Below, in pieces: positions 4,124 through 31,156 of a DNA stretch of 64,000 nucleotides. The translations under genes were made by a program, and so were the position numbers. The DNA is taken from contig VXNJ01000006.1 in assembly GCA_009840625.1 (NCBI GenBank), forward strand, positions 1 through 64,000, in the 5' to 3' direction. The notes below the pieces were generated by a model, which was not told the DNA's origin, did no database searches, and saw only the letters and a program-made list of their open reading frames with translations. The stretch is from Chloroflexota bacterium (GTDB taxonomy: Bacteria; Chloroflexota; UBA11872; VXNJ01). The stretch's first letter is position 1. Every line of letters begins with the position of its first letter.

Positions 4124-4642
4124 TCACTCGCTCGCCGCCGCCTGTTGCTGCTTGAGCTGCTCGCGGGCCAGGGCCTCGGCCTCGGCGGCCAGCTCGTCAA
4201 GGTCCATCACCTCGACGGTTATCGACGCCTCCAGCCCCGCGACAACCCGGACCGGAAGCGTGTAAATCCCCAGCGATCGGATCGGGTCGTGGATCGTGAT
4301 CCGGTGGCGGTCGATTTCAATACCGATCTGTTCGTTGAGCGCCTCAGCCACCTGCTGATTGGTAATCCGGCCGTGGATGCGGCCTTCAGAGCCGACCCGG
4401 GCCGGAATGATCACCGACGCGCCCTGCAGCTTGGAGGCCATTTCCTGGGCCTTCACCATCTCCTGCTGGGCGCGGTGGCTGGCGATCGCATGCTGGGTGC
4501 GCTGGTCTCGCAACACCCCCGGGGTCGCCGGGCGGGCCAGTTGCTTGGGGATCAGGTGGTTGCGGGCGAACCCGGGCGCAACCTCCGTGATTTCGCCGAC
4601 CCGGCCAAGGTTCGGCACGTCGGTTAGGAGTATCACTTTCAT
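4124..4642 (-). CDS. rplI: 50S ribosomal protein L9
   Basis: L9 is a two-domain protein of the large ribosomal subunit that binds 23S rRNA near the L1 stalk. The 172 residues start with the classic MKVILLTDVPNLG. The signature G.....V..GFARNHLIP follows, then the long connecting helix and a C-terminal domain from about residue 80. A Glu/Gln/Ala-rich tail (residues 148-172) is longer than in short L9 proteins. Its ATG overlaps the rho stop as ATGA (4639-4642), which indicates translational coupling to rho. Confidence 0.95.
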   Translation of the reverse strand: MKVILLTDVPNLGRVGEITEVAPGFARNHLIPKQLARPATPGVLRDQRTQHAIASHRAQQEMVKAQEMASKLQGASVIIPARVGSEGRIHGRITNQQVAEALNEQIGIEIDRHRITIHDPIRSLGIYTLPVRVVAGLEASITVEVMDLDELAAEAEALAREQLKQQQAAASE

Positions 4643-6015
4643 AGCGATTGCTTCTGGATTGTGCTCATGAAGTCGGCGTTGTCCCGGGTCTTCTTGAGCT
4701 GGTCGAGCATGAGTTCGATTGCGTCCTCGTCGCCAACCGCGATCAGCATTCGACGCAGCAACCAGCTCATCCGGGTCTTTTCATCGTCGAGCAGCAGCTC
4801 GATGCGGCGGGTACCAGATTTAATCACATCCACTGATGGGAATGTGCCGCGTTCGGCCAGGCGCCGATTCAGGATCAACTCCCAGTTGCCGGTGCCCTTG
4901 AACTCCTCGTAGATGACCTCGTCCATCCGCGAGCCGGTGTCAATGAGGCACGAGGCCAGGACGGTTAGCGAACCACCGTTTTCGATGTTGCGGCCGGACC
5001 CGAAGAATGTCTTCGGCGGTACCAGCGCGGCCGGGTCCACGCCTCCAGACAGGGTCTTGCCGGATGACGGGACCTGCAGGTTGTAGGCGCGCGCCAGGCG
5101 CGTGATCGAGTCCAGGAACAGGACCACGTTTGCGCCGTTTTCAACCAGCCGGCGGGCGCGTTGCATGGTCAGTTCGGCCACCCGGCAGTGGCTGTCGGGA
5201 TGCTCGTCGAATGTCGAGCTGATAACTTCGGCCTTGACGTTGCGCTGCCAGTCGGTGACTTCCTCGGGGCGCTCCCCGATCAGGGCTACCAACAGCTGCA
5301 GATCGTCGTAGTTGGCGCTGACCGACTTGGCGATGCGCTTCATCACTTCCGTCTTGCCGGCCTTCGGCGGCGAGACGATCAGGCCGCGCTGTCCGCGGCC
5401 GATGGGCGCGACCAGGTCGATGACGCGCGTGGTCAGGTCGGCACGCTCGTGTTCCAGCAGTATCTGGTCGGTCGGGAAAATCGGGACCAGGTTCCGGAAC
5501 CGCGGTCGCCGCGGCGCCTGCTTGGGATCGGCGTTGTTGATCGCCACTACGCGAACCAGGCCGCGGTACTTCTCGTTGTCCTTGGGGCGGCGGACCTGGC
5601 CGGTCACGAAATCGCCGGTCCGCATTCCGGTGCGCCGAATCTGGGCCTGCGATACGTATATGTCGGCCGGATCGGGCAGCCAGCGCTGGTTTCCGCGCAG
5701 GACTCCGAATCCCTCGGGTGTTATCTCAAGGACTCCGTGCACCAGCGAATTGGCCAAGCTCTCGTCGCTCTTGGCAATGATCAGGTCGACCAACGACCGC
5801 TTGTCGATCGGTTCCGGATCCCCGTTTTCTTCAACTCCGAGACGCTCGGCCAGCGAACGCAGCTCGTCGAAATCGCGGGCCATGAAATCGCGGGTCGAAA
5901 AAACGCCCAACAGCTCGGGGGCGCCGTTGATGGTTTCAATGTCGATGCTGCGCACGTTAGCGCCCCAATTGCCGCCCCGGCCGCGGTCACGGTAGGGTCT
6001 TCGGCGTCCGCTCAC
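4639..6015 (-). CDS. rho: Transcription termination factor Rho
   Basis: Rho is a hexameric RNA-dependent ATPase that ends transcription. The 458 residues contain an N-terminal helical domain (about 40-85), a cold-shock-like RNA-binding domain (about 93-165, with GFGVLR and the RNA-contacting DIYVS.AQIRR) and a RecA-like domain with Walker A SPPKAGKT at 215-222. The conserved sequence GGVDPAALVPPKTFFGSGRN and a C-terminal R-loop region are also present. A short basic Gly/Arg-rich leader (residues 3-17) precedes the fold. GTG at 6015 is chosen because GGAG lies 9 bases upstream. The gene appears to head a rho-rplI-dnaB-secA transcript. Confidence 0.96.
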   Translation of the reverse strand: MSGRRRPYRDRGRGGNWGANVRSIDIETINGAPELLGVFSTRDFMARDFDELRSLAERLGVEENGDPEPIDKRSLVDLIIAKSDESLANSLVHGVLEITPEGFGVLRGNQRWLPDPADIYVSQAQIRRTGMRTGDFVTGQVRRPKDNEKYRGLVRVVAINNADPKQAPRRPRFRNLVPIFPTDQILLEHERADLTTRVIDLVAPIGRGQRGLIVSPPKAGKTEVMKRIAKSVSANYDDLQLLVALIGERPEEVTDWQRNVKAEVISSTFDEHPDSHCRVAELTMQRARRLVENGANVVLFLDSITRLARAYNLQVPSSGKTLSGGVDPAALVPPKTFFGSGRNIENGGSLTVLASCLIDTGSRMDEVIYEEFKGTGNWELILNRRLAERGTFPSVDVIKSGTRRIELLLDDEKTRMSWLLRRMLIAVGDEDAIELMLDQLKKTRDNADFMSTIQKQSL

Positions 6016-11604: not shown

Positions 11605-12764
11605 CCCTCGGCGCGGTATCCGACGACCAGCAGGACGCTCGCGCCCAGTTGAACCCGTCGTCCGGCCGGCACCGATTGGGCGCGGACCACCAGTTCGCGA
11701 TCGGGAATGGGTTCCGGGCTGACGATGCGTTCGATTGCAATGCCGGCCGCCCGACCGATTTCGCGCGCCCGCTCAAGCGGCAGGTCAACGAGGTCCGGGA
11801 CCTCCACCATGGGCCTCTGGTTGGCCCGGAGGAGCAGTTCTTCGCCAACCGGCAGGATCGTCCCCGGGGCCGGCGATTGCTCAAGCACGATGCCCAACGG
11901 CAGGCCGGCAACGTAGCTTTCACCGTCGGCGACTGCCTCGAATCCGTAGGCGGCCGCGCGCCGCAACGCCAGTTCCACGTCGAGCCCGGCAAGGTCGGGC
12001 ACGGCCTGCAGGCGCAGACCGGCGTTGTAGGTAAGCGTCACCCGGGCGCCCGGTTCGATTTCGGCCCCCGGCTCCGGGAATTGTTCGGATACGACCCCGA
12101 CCGGGAGGTCGGGATGGTGGATAGGAACGGTTTCGGCCACGTAACCGGCCTCGGTGAGCTGGCTTTGGGCCGCCTCGACGTTCTGGCCGATCACCGATCC
12201 GAGAGCGATGCTCTCGGCCCCGGCGGCGACCCGCACCAGGACGCTCTCGCCGGGGGCCAGCAGGACTCCGGCGGCCGGATCCTGGCCAAGCACCCGGTTC
12301 GGTTCGGCGCCCTCGTCGGTCACCGGCTCAACCACCAGCTCCAGGCCCAGCGCATCGATCGCGCCGCGGGCTTCGATCAGCGACCTCCCGGTCAGCAGCG
12401 GCGCGGAGACTTCCGCTCCGGGACCGCTGTCGACCAGCGGCTCGAACGCATAACCGAGCTCGTCGGCCAATCGCGTCAACGGGCCGGCCGGATTGAGATC
12501 GAGCGAGTAGATGAATCCAAAGGTCAGAATCGCGCAGGCCAGCGAAACCGCGACCATCCAGCCGTTTATGCGGTAGTTGCGGGATTCGTGGCGCGGGCGC
12601 TGCGGCAGGCCGATCCGGCGGGCGCGCAGCTGATCGAGGACACGCCGACTGGCCCGATCCGACCTGGCCGACCCCATCCGCCTGAGGCGGAATCTCCGGT
12701 CCCTTTCCCGCCGGGGGGAATCTAGGGGGTGCGATCTGGCCAACTGCGGCAAGCCCCAAGGCAT
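11601..12764 (-). CDS. Membrane-anchored PASTA-domain protein without a kinase domain
   Basis: The 387 residues comprise a basic cytoplasmic N-terminus, one transmembrane segment (about 69-88, VAVSLACAILTFGFIYSL) and about four PASTA repeats in the outside part. The repeats are recognisable by G....A...L...GL and a Q.P.AG..L.PG..V.V pattern repeated from about residue 115 to the end. PASTA repeats bind peptidoglycan stem peptides or beta-lactams and usually occur on Ser/Thr kinases or PBPs; neither domain is present here. The start is uncertain: ATG 12764 or ATG 12677. It lies between rnc and the M23 peptidase, with ATGA coupling to the peptidase, and suggests a wall-sensing or scaffolding partner. 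Confidence 0.82.
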   Translation of the reverse strand: MPWGLPQLARSHPLDSPRRERDRRFRLRRMGSARSDRASRRVLDQLRARRIGLPQRPRHESRNYRINGWMVAVSLACAILTFGFIYSLDLNPAGPLTRLADELGYAFEPLVDSGPGAEVSAPLLTGRSLIEARGAIDALGLELVVEPVTDEGAEPNRVLGQDPAAGVLLAPGESVLVRVAAGAESIALGSVIGQNVEAAQSQLTEAGYVAETVPIHHPDLPVGVVSEQFPEPGAEIEPGARVTLTYNAGLRLQAVPDLAGLDVELALRRAAAYGFEAVADGESYVAGLPLGIVLEQSPAPGTILPVGEELLLRANQRPMVEVPDLVDLPLERAREIGRAAGIAIERIVSPEPIPDRELVVRAQSVPAGRRVQLGASVLLVVGYRAEG

Positions 12765-12824: not shown

Positions 12825-13640
12825 CTAGCGCGCCGAGCGGCTGCGGCGAAGTTCCTTCTCCAGGACCCGGATCGCACGACCGGCCGCCGTTTGCTCGGCG
12901 CCGCGCACGGTCTTTCCGGAGGCCGAGGAGAGGTCGCGCCCATCGAGGACGACCGCCACTGAAAACGTTGGCGCGTGCGCCGGTCCGCGGGTGTTGATCA
13001 GTTCGTAACGCGGTTGCTGGCGGAACTCCGACTGGGTCAATTGCTGGAGGCGCGACTTGTTGTCGGTCGGCAGTTGCCGCCCGCGCTCGACGGACGTCCC
13101 GGACTGGCCGTTTCGTCCCGGAATCTGCAGCGGTGGTCCGCCGGCAACATGGTGGTTGACCCGCAGCAGTTCCTCGAAAAACGGCTGCAGCACCCGCTTG
13201 ACCTGGCCCAGTCCGTAATCCGAATCCAGGTAAATCGCCCCGATGATTGCTTCGAAACTGCGGCCGGCGACGCCTTTCTGGTTTCGTTTCTTGGACAAGT
13301 CAAGGCCCGATCCGACCACCACGTAGCGGTAGAGCCCGATTTTTTCGGCCATCGCGGCCAGGGCGGTGAGGCTGACCAGGTCCTTGCGGACGTTGGTCAT
13401 TTCGCCTTCGTCCATTTGCGGAAAGCGGGCGTACAGGTCATCGGTCGCGGCCAGATTCAGGGCCGAATCGCCGAGGAATTCCATCCGTTCGTAGGAATCG
13501 AGGCTGCTCAGATGACGGTCTTCGTTGATCGCCGAGCGATGGGTGACGGCGCGCCGCAGCAGGCTAATGTCCTGGAACCGATATCCCAGCTTGCGTTCCA
13601 GGGTCCCGAGTTCGCCGCCGTTCTCCGATTCGCCCTCCAC
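12825..13640 (-). CDS. rnc: Ribonuclease III (conserved core; true start probably upstream)
   Basis: RNase III cleaves double-stranded RNA in rRNA maturation and mRNA decay. From the first conventional start, GTG 13640, the product is 271 residues. The signature ERMEFLGDSAL puts E54 and D58 at two catalytic metal positions. The second acidic block is RSFEAIIGAIYLD, giving E130. By eye against E. coli Rnc, the Asp normally three residues before that Glu is Arg127 here. A double-stranded-RNA-binding domain occupies about 192-262. The gap before the dsRBD (about 155-190) is Gly/Asn-rich. The reading frame stays open for another 97 codons upstream; see the separate extension entry. Downstream is the PASTA gene. 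Confidence 0.93.
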   Translation of the reverse strand: MEGESENGGELGTLERKLGYRFQDISLLRRAVTHRSAINEDRHLSSLDSYERMEFLGDSALNLAATDDLYARFPQMDEGEMTNVRKDLVSLTALAAMAEKIGLYRYVVVGSGLDLSKKRNQKGVAGRSFEAIIGAIYLDSDYGLGQVKRVLQPFFEELLRVNHHVAGGPPLQIPGRNGQSGTSVERGRQLPTDNKSRLQQLTQSEFRQQPRYELINTRGPAHAPTFSVAVVLDGRDLSSASGKTVRGAEQTAAGRAIRVLEKELRRSRSAR

Positions 13641-13931
13641 CCGCGACGGGCGGCGCGGGCGTCCCGGGGAGCGATCGCGATCGCGGGCGGAGCGTACCTG
13701 CGACGTTCCGTTTCGGCCCGCCTGGCCCCGCGAACCGCGCCGCGAACTGGCGCGGGTGCTGCCACGCGAACTGCCGCGCGAGCCGCCGTTGCTGCGCGAG
13801 CTTGTACGGGGACGCCTGCCGCGCCGGCTCGGGGGTCGCGACCGGCTGGGTTTTAGGGGAGCCGCCGGCTCCGGTGCCGGGTCCGCTTTGGCGGGACCGG
13901 CCAGACCGATTGAGCGGAGCAGGTTTTTCAG
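13641..13931 (-). other. In-frame Arg/Ser/Gly-rich N-terminal extension of RNase III with CTG start
   Basis: The rnc frame is open from a stop just inside the end of ilvE down to GTG 13640 and contains no ATG, GTG or TTG. The CTG at 13931-13929 overlaps the ilvE stop as CTGA. Reading from it gives KNLLRSIGLAGPAKADP, then an Ala/Pro stretch. A disordered basic segment follows with 24 Arg and 18 Ser in 97 codons (SSR, GSR, GSSR and SRR repeats), joining directly to the RNase III core. The result would be a 368-residue protein. The GC-rich, stop-free frame, the protein-like first 25 residues and the CTGA overlap support translation. No strong Shine-Dalgarno is visible. It could instead be an untranslated spacer. 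Confidence 0.55.
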
Positions 13932-14896
13932 AGTCTCGTCGCCACCCGATCAGGTGTGGCGGGCGTCAGCCAGTGCCGGTAAGCCTGGTTGCGCCCCTTA
14001 ACCACGTCGAAGTAGATGTTCTGCATCTGGCGCGTTATGGGTCCGACATCGCCGTTGCCGATCGATCGGCCGTCGAGGTGGGAAACGGCCGAGATCTGGG
14101 CGCCGGTTCCGCACAGGAACAGCTCGTCACAGCTGTAGAGTTCGGTCCTGTCAATCGGCCGTTCGACCGTGTCCAAGCCGAGTTCCCGGGCGGCCAGCTC
14201 GATGACGGTTGCGCGGGTTATTCCCTCGAGGATGTTTTCGGATACAGCCGGCGTGACCAGGTGGCCGTCGCGAACGATGAACAGGTTTTCGCCGGTTCCC
14301 TCGCTGACGTGGCCGGCGGCGGTGAGCATGATCGCCTCGTCGTACCCGTTTTGCTCGGCCTCGGTCTTGGCCAATGCCGAATTTATGTAAAGACCGGTGG
14401 CCTTCGAACGTGCCGGGATCATGTTGTCGTCGATCCGGACCCAGGCCGAAATGCAGCATCTGATGGGCGCATTGACGTCCAGGTAGTCGCCGAAGGGGGC
14501 GGCGAACAGGCAAAAATCGTCTTCGAGATTGGATACCTGCCCGTTGGCGTCGCGCCGCACCATGCTCAGACCGATGGTGGTGGAGGCCTTGTACACGATC
14601 GGCCGGACGTACACGTCGGTGGTGAACCCGCAGCGCTGAATGATCTGCTGGGTGATTTCACAGAGTTCGTCGACCGTGTATTCGAGCGTGAGCAGAAGCA
14701 TCCGCGCCGAGCGGTGCAAACGTTCGAAATGCTCGGGCAGCCGGAACAGATAGACCTGTTTTTCTTCCTCGCTCCAGTAGCCGCGTATCCCCTCGAAGCA
14801 ACCGGTGCCGTAGTTGAAGGCGTGGGTCCCGATGCTCACGCGGGCATCTTCCAACGGTACAAACTCGCCCTTGAAAAAGGCCCAACTGTCAGCCAA
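13928..14896 (-). CDS. ilvE: Branched-chain amino acid aminotransferase
   Basis: A PLP enzyme of fold type IV that carries out the last step of Leu, Ile and Val synthesis with glutamate. The 322 residues contain the N-terminal GTHAFNYGTGCFEGIRGY block, the PLP-lysine K165 in ARSKATGLY, then YDEAIML and SEGTGENLFIV. The phosphate-binding GTGAQISAV region is near residue 270. The length and the GDVGPITRQMQ.IYFDVVKG end match IlvE rather than D-amino acid aminotransferase. It is physically apart from the ilv-leu block at 38.7-48.5 kb. Its stop overlaps the proposed CTG start of the rnc extension. Confidence 0.94.
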   Translation of the reverse strand: MADSWAFFKGEFVPLEDARVSIGTHAFNYGTGCFEGIRGYWSEEEKQVYLFRLPEHFERLHRSARMLLLTLEYTVDELCEITQQIIQRCGFTTDVYVRPIVYKASTTIGLSMVRRDANGQVSNLEDDFCLFAAPFGDYLDVNAPIRCCISAWVRIDDNMIPARSKATGLYINSALAKTEAEQNGYDEAIMLTAAGHVSEGTGENLFIVRDGHLVTPAVSENILEGITRATVIELAARELGLDTVERPIDRTELYSCDELFLCGTGAQISAVSHLDGRSIGNGDVGPITRQMQNIYFDVVKGRNQAYRHWLTPATPDRVATRL

Positions 14897-29333: not shown

Positions 29334-30164
29334 ATGGGGACCCTTTTCGTGGTCGCCACCCCGATCGGCAATCTGGAAGACATTTCGCCGCGTTCGCAGG
29401 CGGTTCTCGAATCGGCCGCCGTCATATACGCCGAGGACACCCGCCGCACCCGCAAGCTTCTTACGCACCTGGGCATCCGCAACCGGCCGCTCAGCCTGCA
29501 CGGCGATTCGGCCGACTCGGCCTGGCGGGACGCCGCCGCGGCACTCGCCGACGGTGACGTGGCCTACGTGACCGACGGGGGAACCCCGGCGGTCGCCGAT
29601 CCCGGCGCCCGTCTGGTACGACTGGCCCACGAGCGCGGCCATCCGGTCAGGACCGTGCCCGGACCCTCGGCAGTCACCGCCGCGCTGGCGGTGGCCGGTC
29701 TGGAGAGCGGGGGACACGTTTTTCTGGGCTTTCTACCGCCGCGCCGGTCGCGGCGAATGCAGCTGCTTGAATCGGCGATCGCGACCAATCTGCCGATGGT
29801 TGTATTCGCCGGACCCCACGACCTTTCCGAACTGCTTGCCGAACTGGCCGATCTGCTGGGCCCCCAAGCCGGTGTGGTCGTCTGCCACGAGCTGACCAAG
29901 CTGCACGAAAGCGTGGTGCGCACCACGCTGGGCCAGGCTCCGGGCCTGGACGTGGTATCCCAGGGCCGGGGCGAAAAAACCCTGGTGCTGGATCCGCCGC
30001 AAAAGCCGGCCGCGCCCCCGCCCGAATCCCAGTTGCGGCTAGAGCTGGCCCAGCTGCAGGACTCGGGCTTCTCACCCAGCCGGGCGGCGCGCGAACTCGC
30101 CGCGCGTCACCGATTGCCCAAGGACGTGATCTACCGGCTGGTCGTGGATTCGGACCGCAATTGA
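29334..30164 (+). CDS. rsmI: 16S rRNA 2'-O-ribose C1402 methyltransferase
   Basis: RsmI methylates C1402 in the ribosomal P site. The 276 residues begin MGTLFVVATPIGNLEDISPR and include AEDTRRTRKLL and YVTDGGTPAVADPGARLV, all tetrapyrrole-methylase-fold RsmI signatures, and HELTKLHES. A C-terminal helix-turn-helix-like segment (SPSRAARELAARHRLPKDV) matches longer RsmI proteins. Its stop overlaps the next start as TTGA. Confidence 0.94.
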   Translation: MGTLFVVATPIGNLEDISPRSQAVLESAAVIYAEDTRRTRKLLTHLGIRNRPLSLHGDSADSAWRDAAAALADGDVAYVTDGGTPAVADPGARLVRLAHERGHPVRTVPGPSAVTAALAVAGLESGGHVFLGFLPPRRSRRMQLLESAIATNLPMVVFAGPHDLSELLAELADLLGPQAGVVVCHELTKLHESVVRTTLGQAPGLDVVSQGRGEKTLVLDPPQKPAAPPPESQLRLELAQLQDSGFSPSRAARELAARHRLPKDVIYRLVVDSDRN

Positions 30165-31156
30165 CCGCCCTCCGGCCGGACAGCACCGCCGCCCTGGCGG
30201 AGATGATCGGCGGCGGCAGCCAGGGGATTGGGATCCTGGCCGGCTGGTCTTCGCACTGGACTCGAAAGCCCCCGCGAGTCGAATTCACCGGGCTGGACCT
30301 GAGCGCTCTCGACCGGCTGCTCGACCTTTCCGCGGGGGACCTGACCTGCCGGGTGGAGGCCGGGATTAGCCTTGGGTCTTTAACCGCGCACCTGGACCCG
30401 GTCGGGTTGGAATGGCCGGTGCAGCCGCTGCCGGGGCAGACCCGGTTGGCGCAGACCTTCCTTTCGGGGGCCGCGTACGCGACGAGCGCGCTGTTCCCCA
30501 ACCCGCGCGATTGGATCCTGGGCGGAACGCTAGTCAGCGGGCGCGGCGAGATAGTGACCACCGGCGGGGCCACGGTAAAGAACTCGGCCGGTTACGACCT
30601 GGTACGAAGCTGTTTTGGCAGCATGGGCGTCCTGGCCGTCCCGGCCCAGCTCCAACTCCGCCTGCGGCCGCGACCGCAGGCGCGCCTGCGGTTGACGGCG
30701 CCGGGGTTGGGGCCGGAACCGTACCTGACGCTCCTGGCCGCGGCCCGCCGGCAAATGGACGTGATCGAGACTTTCCAGATCGCCGGGGGCACGGCCCGTC
30801 TGGGGATCGCCGGGCCCGACGATCGGGTCGAGGAGGCCGCCGCCGCTTTGACGGAAGCCCTGCCCGGGCTTTTGAGGGCCGAGTCCGAACCCGCCAGCGG
30901 ATCGGCCGACTGGAACGGCGATCGCTATCAAATGGCCCTGCCGGCCAACAGGATGGCCGGCTTCCTGGCCGATCGGGAACCGGCCCGGTACTGGGCGTTT
31001 CCGTTCCAGCGCCTGGCCTTCAGCCAGGGTTCGCCCGGGCGATCGTTCCCGGAAGTCCGGTCGACGCGGCTTCTGCCGCTGCCCGATGCCCGGTCGCTGC
31101 GCGCGGGGCTGGCGCTGCTGTGCCGGGGGCTTGATCCTGACCGGAGGTTCGTCTGA
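30161..31156 (+). CDS. FAD-binding oxidoreductase, glycolate oxidase GlcE-like
   Basis: The 331-residue product has a PCMH-type FAD domain. Visible are CRVEAGISLGSL, GGTLVSGRGEIVTTGG and TVKNSAGYDLVRSCFGSMGVL, the GlcE pattern. The C-terminal part is variable. GlcE normally works with GlcD and the iron-sulfur GlcF; neither is in the window, so partners must be elsewhere or this is an independent member. The TTG start overlaps the rsmI stop. The upstream 2-hydroxyacid dehydrogenase suggests a 2-hydroxy/2-oxoacid theme. Confidence 0.75.
   Translation: MTALRPDSTAALAEMIGGGSQGIGILAGWSSHWTRKPPRVEFTGLDLSALDRLLDLSAGDLTCRVEAGISLGSLTAHLDPVGLEWPVQPLPGQTRLAQTFLSGAAYATSALFPNPRDWILGGTLVSGRGEIVTTGGATVKNSAGYDLVRSCFGSMGVLAVPAQLQLRLRPRPQARLRLTAPGLGPEPYLTLLAAARRQMDVIETFQIAGGTARLGIAGPDDRVEEAAAALTEALPGLLRAESEPASGSADWNGDRYQMALPANRMAGFLADREPARYWAFPFQRLAFSQGSPGRSFPEVRSTRLLPLPDARSLRAGLALLCRGLDPDRRFV

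Follow-up and report, generated by a model that had tools for sequence, protein, structure and literature searches.

A putative Arg/Ser-rich N-terminal extension of RNase III in a Chloroflexota bacterium, with candidate CTG starts at the end of ilvE

The usual picture of RNase III in bacteria is of a compact enzyme with two domains. It consists of a catalytic domain and a double-stranded RNA-binding domain (dsRBD) (review, PMC8708148). Longer N-terminal parts are found in yeast Rnt1p and Pac1p, and in Rnt1p this part stabilises the homodimer; the N-terminus of Drosha contains Pro-rich and RS-rich regions before the RNase III domains (PMC8708148). We analysed a window of 64,000 nucleotides from a Chloroflexota bacterium (positions 1 to 64,000 of contig VXNJ01000006.1), in which the RNase III gene, rnc, is preceded by a long open frame rich in Arg and Ser codons. 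Our search of the open-access literature, outside which most subscription papers fell, found no papers on such tails in bacterial RNase III.

All sequence features tested place the window protein in class I of the RNase III enzymes: it has a single RNase III domain, the catalytic motifs and a C-terminal dsRBD (Table 1). Arg149, Glu151, Gly154, Asp155, Glu175 and Glu227 are invariant across 62 aligned RNase III sequences, and the dsRBD fold is predicted with pLDDT >90. An apparent loss of a catalytic residue at the position equivalent to D114, which is Arg here, was dropped as a candidate, given that 21 of the 62 relatives also have Arg there. The window protein thus shares with class I bacterial enzymes the one catalytic domain, the one dsRBD and the intact motifs, and differs from them in a putative 97-residue Arg/Ser-rich head and a 23-residue insertion between the two domains. 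The insertion is missing in most of the aligned relatives. Because this disordered segment lies in sequence that is certainly coding, disorder appears to be being gained in rnc.

Rnt1p and Pac1p would resemble an extended window protein in having an extra N-terminal segment ahead of an otherwise bacterial-type enzyme, a likeness of layout for which we claim no sequence similarity. The Rnt1p segment aids homodimer stability. The window head is predicted to be disordered. Drosha, like the putative extended protein of the window, has a Pro-rich part and an Arg/Ser part ahead of RNase III; in Drosha, the N-terminus functions in nuclear localisation and in the targeting of pri-miRNA. The first-pass annotation had likened the head to RS/RGG RNA-binding tails such as that of Drosha, and the likeness to Drosha is one of composition only. 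Drosha has two RNase III domains and the window protein one. A Drosha identity suggested by the top PDB match was rejected because both Drosha domains score against the single domain of the window protein.

Table 1. Features of the ilvE–rnc junction and of the RNase III frame (positions in the window)
Feature	Position	Strand	Basis
ilvE, branched-chain amino acid transaminase	13928..14896	-	NCBIfam NF005146 E=1e-109, TIGR01122 E=2e-97
Candidate start CTG	13929..13931	-	sequence; shares CTGA with ilvE stop
Alternative in-frame candidate start CTG	13920..13922	-	preceded by A-rich CTGAAAAAC
GTG, start expected from gene caller; matches start position in relatives	13638..13640	-	distance to LExxLGxxF
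Putative RNase III head of 97 residues (25% Arg, 19% Ser), N-terminal	13641..13931	-	open frame, synonymous codon bias, R+S, predicted disorder
Candidate short basic amphipathic helix (M)KNLLRSIGLAG	13896..13931	-	AlphaFold helix residues 2-7, pLDDT ~66
Pro/Ala-rich linker PAKADPAPEPAAPLKP	13848..13895	-	translation; pLDDT ~50
Arg/Ser/Gly-rich disordered segment	13641..13847	-	translation; pLDDT mostly <50
Degenerate 12-nt tandem repeat, 4.8 copies, coding SRGS-like units	13725..13781	-	score of 51 in Tandem Repeats Finder, with 68% matches
RNase III catalytic domain; ERMEFLGDS, E175, E227 motifs kept	13221..13571	-	PF14622 E=3e-25, TIGR02191 E=1e-54
23-residue insertion VAGGPPLQIPGRNGQSGTSVERG, linker between catalytic domain and dsRBD	13080..13148	-	alignment; low pLDDT
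Double-stranded RNA-binding domain	12861..13058	-	PF00035 E=7e-11

Upstream of GTG 13640, the rnc frame stays open for 97 codons and for six more within the end of ilvE, where it is bounded by a TGA. The stretch contains no ATG, GTG or TTG. The ilvE stop occupies 13930-13928, and the CTG at 13931-13929 overlaps it. The 97-codon open frame and the overlapping CTG are exactly as the first-pass annotation described them, and so are its residue counts: the head holds 24 Arg and 18 Ser, together with 12 Gly and 12 Pro. RS and SR dipeptides are present, and the units are SRGS-like, mixed with Gly and Pro. In the AlphaFold prediction, the N-terminal helix is of low confidence, the chain is disordered as far as about residue 98 and the core is confidently modelled, in agreement with the short helix-like start and the disordered segment read from the translation. 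The helix candidate has a hydrophobic moment of 0.51, a value that 8% of random frames reach. A search of the same genome for a second Arg/Ser-rich homologue gave only one weak match, with stops.

The openness of the frame is weak evidence of coding and not remarkable, because 42% of dinucleotide shuffles keep the stretch open. The synonymous part of the codon score is independent of amino-acid composition. For the rnc frame of the head it amounts to 0.085 bits per codon, the highest value in any of the six frames (dinucleotide shuffles, p=0.002), which places the head at the 13th percentile of real coding windows; about 9% of the noncoding spacer frames in the window attain the same score. 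The head has an unusual amino-acid composition, and its full codon score is therefore below zero (-0.2 bits per codon). A combined count of at least 42 Arg and Ser occurred in 0.1% of shuffles (p=0.001) and in 0.7% of those 97-codon stretches of the window that are open but off-frame or noncoding. The Arg+Ser content of the head is thus unusual, though not unique. The tandem repeat, whose period of 12 nt is a multiple of three, adds to the excess. The ilvE–rnc spacer as a structured RNA was rejected on an unexceptional fold (z=-0.78) and the lack of a credible Rfam match.

Non-AUG starts are rare. Shine-Dalgarno sites are seldom used by this genome and cannot serve to choose the start, so start context and local structure were taken as criteria instead. 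GTG 13640 scores poorly on both: with 90% GC upstream, its context score lies under those of all 47 other gene starts in the window, and its surroundings form a very stable stem (MFE, -20.2 kcal/mol), equalled by about 2% of gene starts. If translation began at this GTG, the N-terminus of RNase III would read MEGESENGGELG. CTG 13931 lies in a region (-20 to +20) with an MFE of -5.9 kcal/mol; 92% of random positions fold more stably. The start features of CTG 13922 are better still: it has the best start context among the candidates (97th percentile of random positions), an MFE of -3.7 kcal/mol and an unpaired value of 0.745, which exceeds that of every gene start in the window. A search for a sigma-70-like promoter between 13500 and 15000 gave none. 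We infer that translation more probably begins near the ilvE stop, in coupling with the termination of ilvE, than at GTG 13640.

The two genes adjoin in nearly all genomes of the order; in G003 they lie on different contigs. Order relatives with a readable junction have an ilvE–rnc spacer of 100-190 nt with in-frame stops, and their RNase III begins 10-20 residues before the LExxLGxxF motif, as it would here from GTG 13640. The extension is absent from all of them, with the possible exception of G006, where a similarly laid-out head, independent in origin and started by ATG, may occupy the same place. The extension, if real, is therefore lineage-specific. Stops or frameshifts in close relatives had been named as evidence against it. 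In-frame stops are indeed present in the order-level spacers, but these relatives are at most ~45% identical to the window protein in RNase III, so their stops show absence in the relatives and not decay within the genus. The genomes compared included no congener; a search of genome contigs for congeners returned one unrelated Acidobacteria locus, and a search of viral contigs returned none. In family f2, the spacer opens with a conserved block, CGGGAGGCGAAAGGAGGC..CGCGCTGA.CGCGA..GCCTCC, which is missing from the window spacer, as is the hairpin-like element. That element (L005-L022, L025, L027), conserved in f2, follows ilvE directly, has an AAGGAGG core and a possible hairpin, and lies ~100 nt before the rnc start; it might be an rnc leader for autoregulation.

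Our survey of the phylum covered 99 RNase III loci, with sampling biased to long open frames. Families f18 and f70 (L078, L080, L089, L091, L092, L088, L093) have heads that start at ATG and hold a basic amphipathic segment close to the N-terminus; a Pro/Ser/Ala linker comes next, as in MTRGLTETLRSRLTRLRSRPLSDPPSPAPAP and MGILRSRMGRLLENLPGWRREPSPSP. These heads differ from the window head in being shorter (~35-55 residues), in starting at a canonical ATG and in having no Arg/Ser repeats. Family f9 (L150-L170) has a C-terminal tail that is conserved across many of its genera. It consists, in order, of EPARVRRRVAEVAADRGA, a helix with the sequence RRGLLsALRsAAEALVGR, a Pro/Ala linker and RRGRRGGRGRG, and it has a second conserved motif, ARVRRRVAEVAADRGA. 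The f9 tail and the window head share an LLxxLRS helix and a linker (Pro/Ala/Glu in f9) that leads into an Arg-rich segment (RRGRRGGRGRG in f9), in the same order; the counterparts in the window are LKNLLRSIGLAG, PAKADPAPEPAAPLKP and SRSRPPSRRGRRPRTSS. The f9 segment is C-terminal and the window segment N-terminal, and we take the two to be a probable case of convergent architecture. The earlier statement that bacterial RNase III normally has no such segments was too strong, given that heads or tails occur in several lineages of this phylum.

Other rnc loci of the phylum have unusual features of their own. Long open frames 5' of rnc in L024 and L071-L074 were discarded as heads, being mostly overlaps with neighbouring genes. 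In two of these loci (L072, L073; G221, G207; family f39), the open frame joins a protein that reads as SelD-like (selenophosphate-synthase-like) to RNase III, possibly as a gene fusion. L023 and L075 (G042, G054) have ~165 extra C-terminal residues in the RNase III frame that do not look of low complexity and possibly represent a domain fusion. In family f19 (L131-L149; G056, G132, G188, G202, G209, G216, G305-G316), rnc comes after acpP and lacks a canonical start that is conserved. Twelve of its 19 loci have no ATG, GTG or TTG from 39-48 codons 5' of the core to at least 47 codons within it, and the first GTG falls within the catalytic motif. The rnc frame of f19 is +1 relative to acpP and open through the acpP stop (usually ACC TGA GCC), so that a +1 frameshift fusion of ACP and RNase III, or a very unusual start, is possible.

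We estimate a probability of about 0.6 that the product of rnc in the window is a class I RNase III extended at its N-terminus, from a CTG start, by ~94-97 disordered residues specific to this lineage. Codon bias, the Arg+Ser excess, the accessibility of the CTG starts and the poor context of GTG 13640 argue for the hidden non-AUG extension that the first-pass annotation had proposed. The lack of a sigma-70-like promoter, the unexceptional spacer fold, the repeat period divisible by three, the disordered insertion elsewhere in the gene and the comparable heads and tails of the phylum count in the same direction. The order relatives without it, the rarity of non-AUG starts, the negative full codon score, the noncoding spacer frames that equal its synonymous score and the position of GTG 13640 where relatives start argue against; the proposal is the better supported of the readings, short of proof. 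That the extension is translated by one route or another, counting also the hidden canonical start and the fusion considered below, seems to us likely. An alternative that we find doubtful, yet consistent with several of the observations, treats the 287 nt from ilvE to GTG 13640 as noncoding, either a GC-rich spacer or a leader of rnc, and has RNase III start at this GTG with no extension. The open frame and the Arg/Ser bias would then be products of high GC content and of the 12-nt repeat, which is rich in CG. A GTG can legally start translation, and this one lies at the distance from LExxLGxxF used by the relatives, whose sequence at the same place is noncoding and, in f2, well conserved; shuffling often leaves the frame open, and a few open stretches elsewhere in the window reach the same Arg+Ser count by chance. 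This explanation would place initiation in the worst start context of the window and inside a very stable stem. The ordinary fold of the window spacer and the missing hairpin-like element also count against it, and the synonymous codon bias favours the rnc frame.

Two further explanations would have the extension translated by other means. The start may be canonical, for example an ATG or GTG at 13931 masked by an error or a strain mixture in the metagenome-assembled sequence. The CTG is one base away from either codon and overlaps the ilvE stop in the manner of ATGA and GTGA junctions, and the first residues resemble a natural N-terminus; we nevertheless consider such masking improbable. Less credible still is a frameshift in which ribosomes leave the ilvE frame close to its stop and continue in that of rnc, giving an IlvE-RNase III fusion. 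The six open rnc codons within ilvE would permit it, and the f19 genes beside acpP suggest unusual rnc expression in the phylum. A -1 shift would be needed, however, with no good slippery heptamer ahead of the ilvE stop, and a fusion to a full-length transaminase would be an odd product.

Three other places in the window stood out. The protein at 4639-6015 (minus strand), a Rho-like ATPase by reading of its translation, has a short RG-rich N-terminal segment, SGRRRPYRDRGRGGNWG. The called N-terminus of a PASTA protein (12680-12764, minus strand) is Arg-rich, and a later ATG (MGSARSDRASRR) may be its real start; GC-rich junctions here can therefore look Arg-rich. The gene at 30161-31156 (plus strand) is preceded by 130 open codons 5' of its called start with no earlier canonical start, a longer stretch than at rnc, which is possibly another hidden extension or chance.

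If the window RNase III is extended from CTG, translation would start at CTG 13922 or 13931 beside the ilvE stop, coupled to ilvE termination. The product would comprise the basic amphipathic helix, the Pro/Ala linker and the Arg/Ser/Gly segment, followed by an ordinary catalytic domain and dsRBD. The Arg-rich segment would raise the non-specific affinity for structured RNA, such as pre-rRNA or ribosomes, and the helix may touch a partner or the membrane. The tail would thus tether the enzyme and leave its chemistry unchanged. A polybasic disordered head on a dsRNA endonuclease would most simply serve to tether it to RNA or ribosomes. A wider and more speculative proposal, which we think unlikely to hold in full, is that RNA-tethering tails, disordered, rich in Arg and joined to a short LLxxLR helix, have arisen repeatedly in bacterial RNase III, N-terminal here and C-terminal in f9, and that here the tail is made through an ilvE-coupled CUG start, which would make the dose or targeting of the enzyme depend on ilvE translation. 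Because the f9 tail is conserved over many genera, the question can be tested beyond a single genome. If disordered Arg-rich tails prove common across the phylum, gene callers that halt at the earliest canonical codon would overlook them, and bacterial RNase III could have its substrate choice and localisation tuned in the way known from RNase E or DEAD-box helicases.
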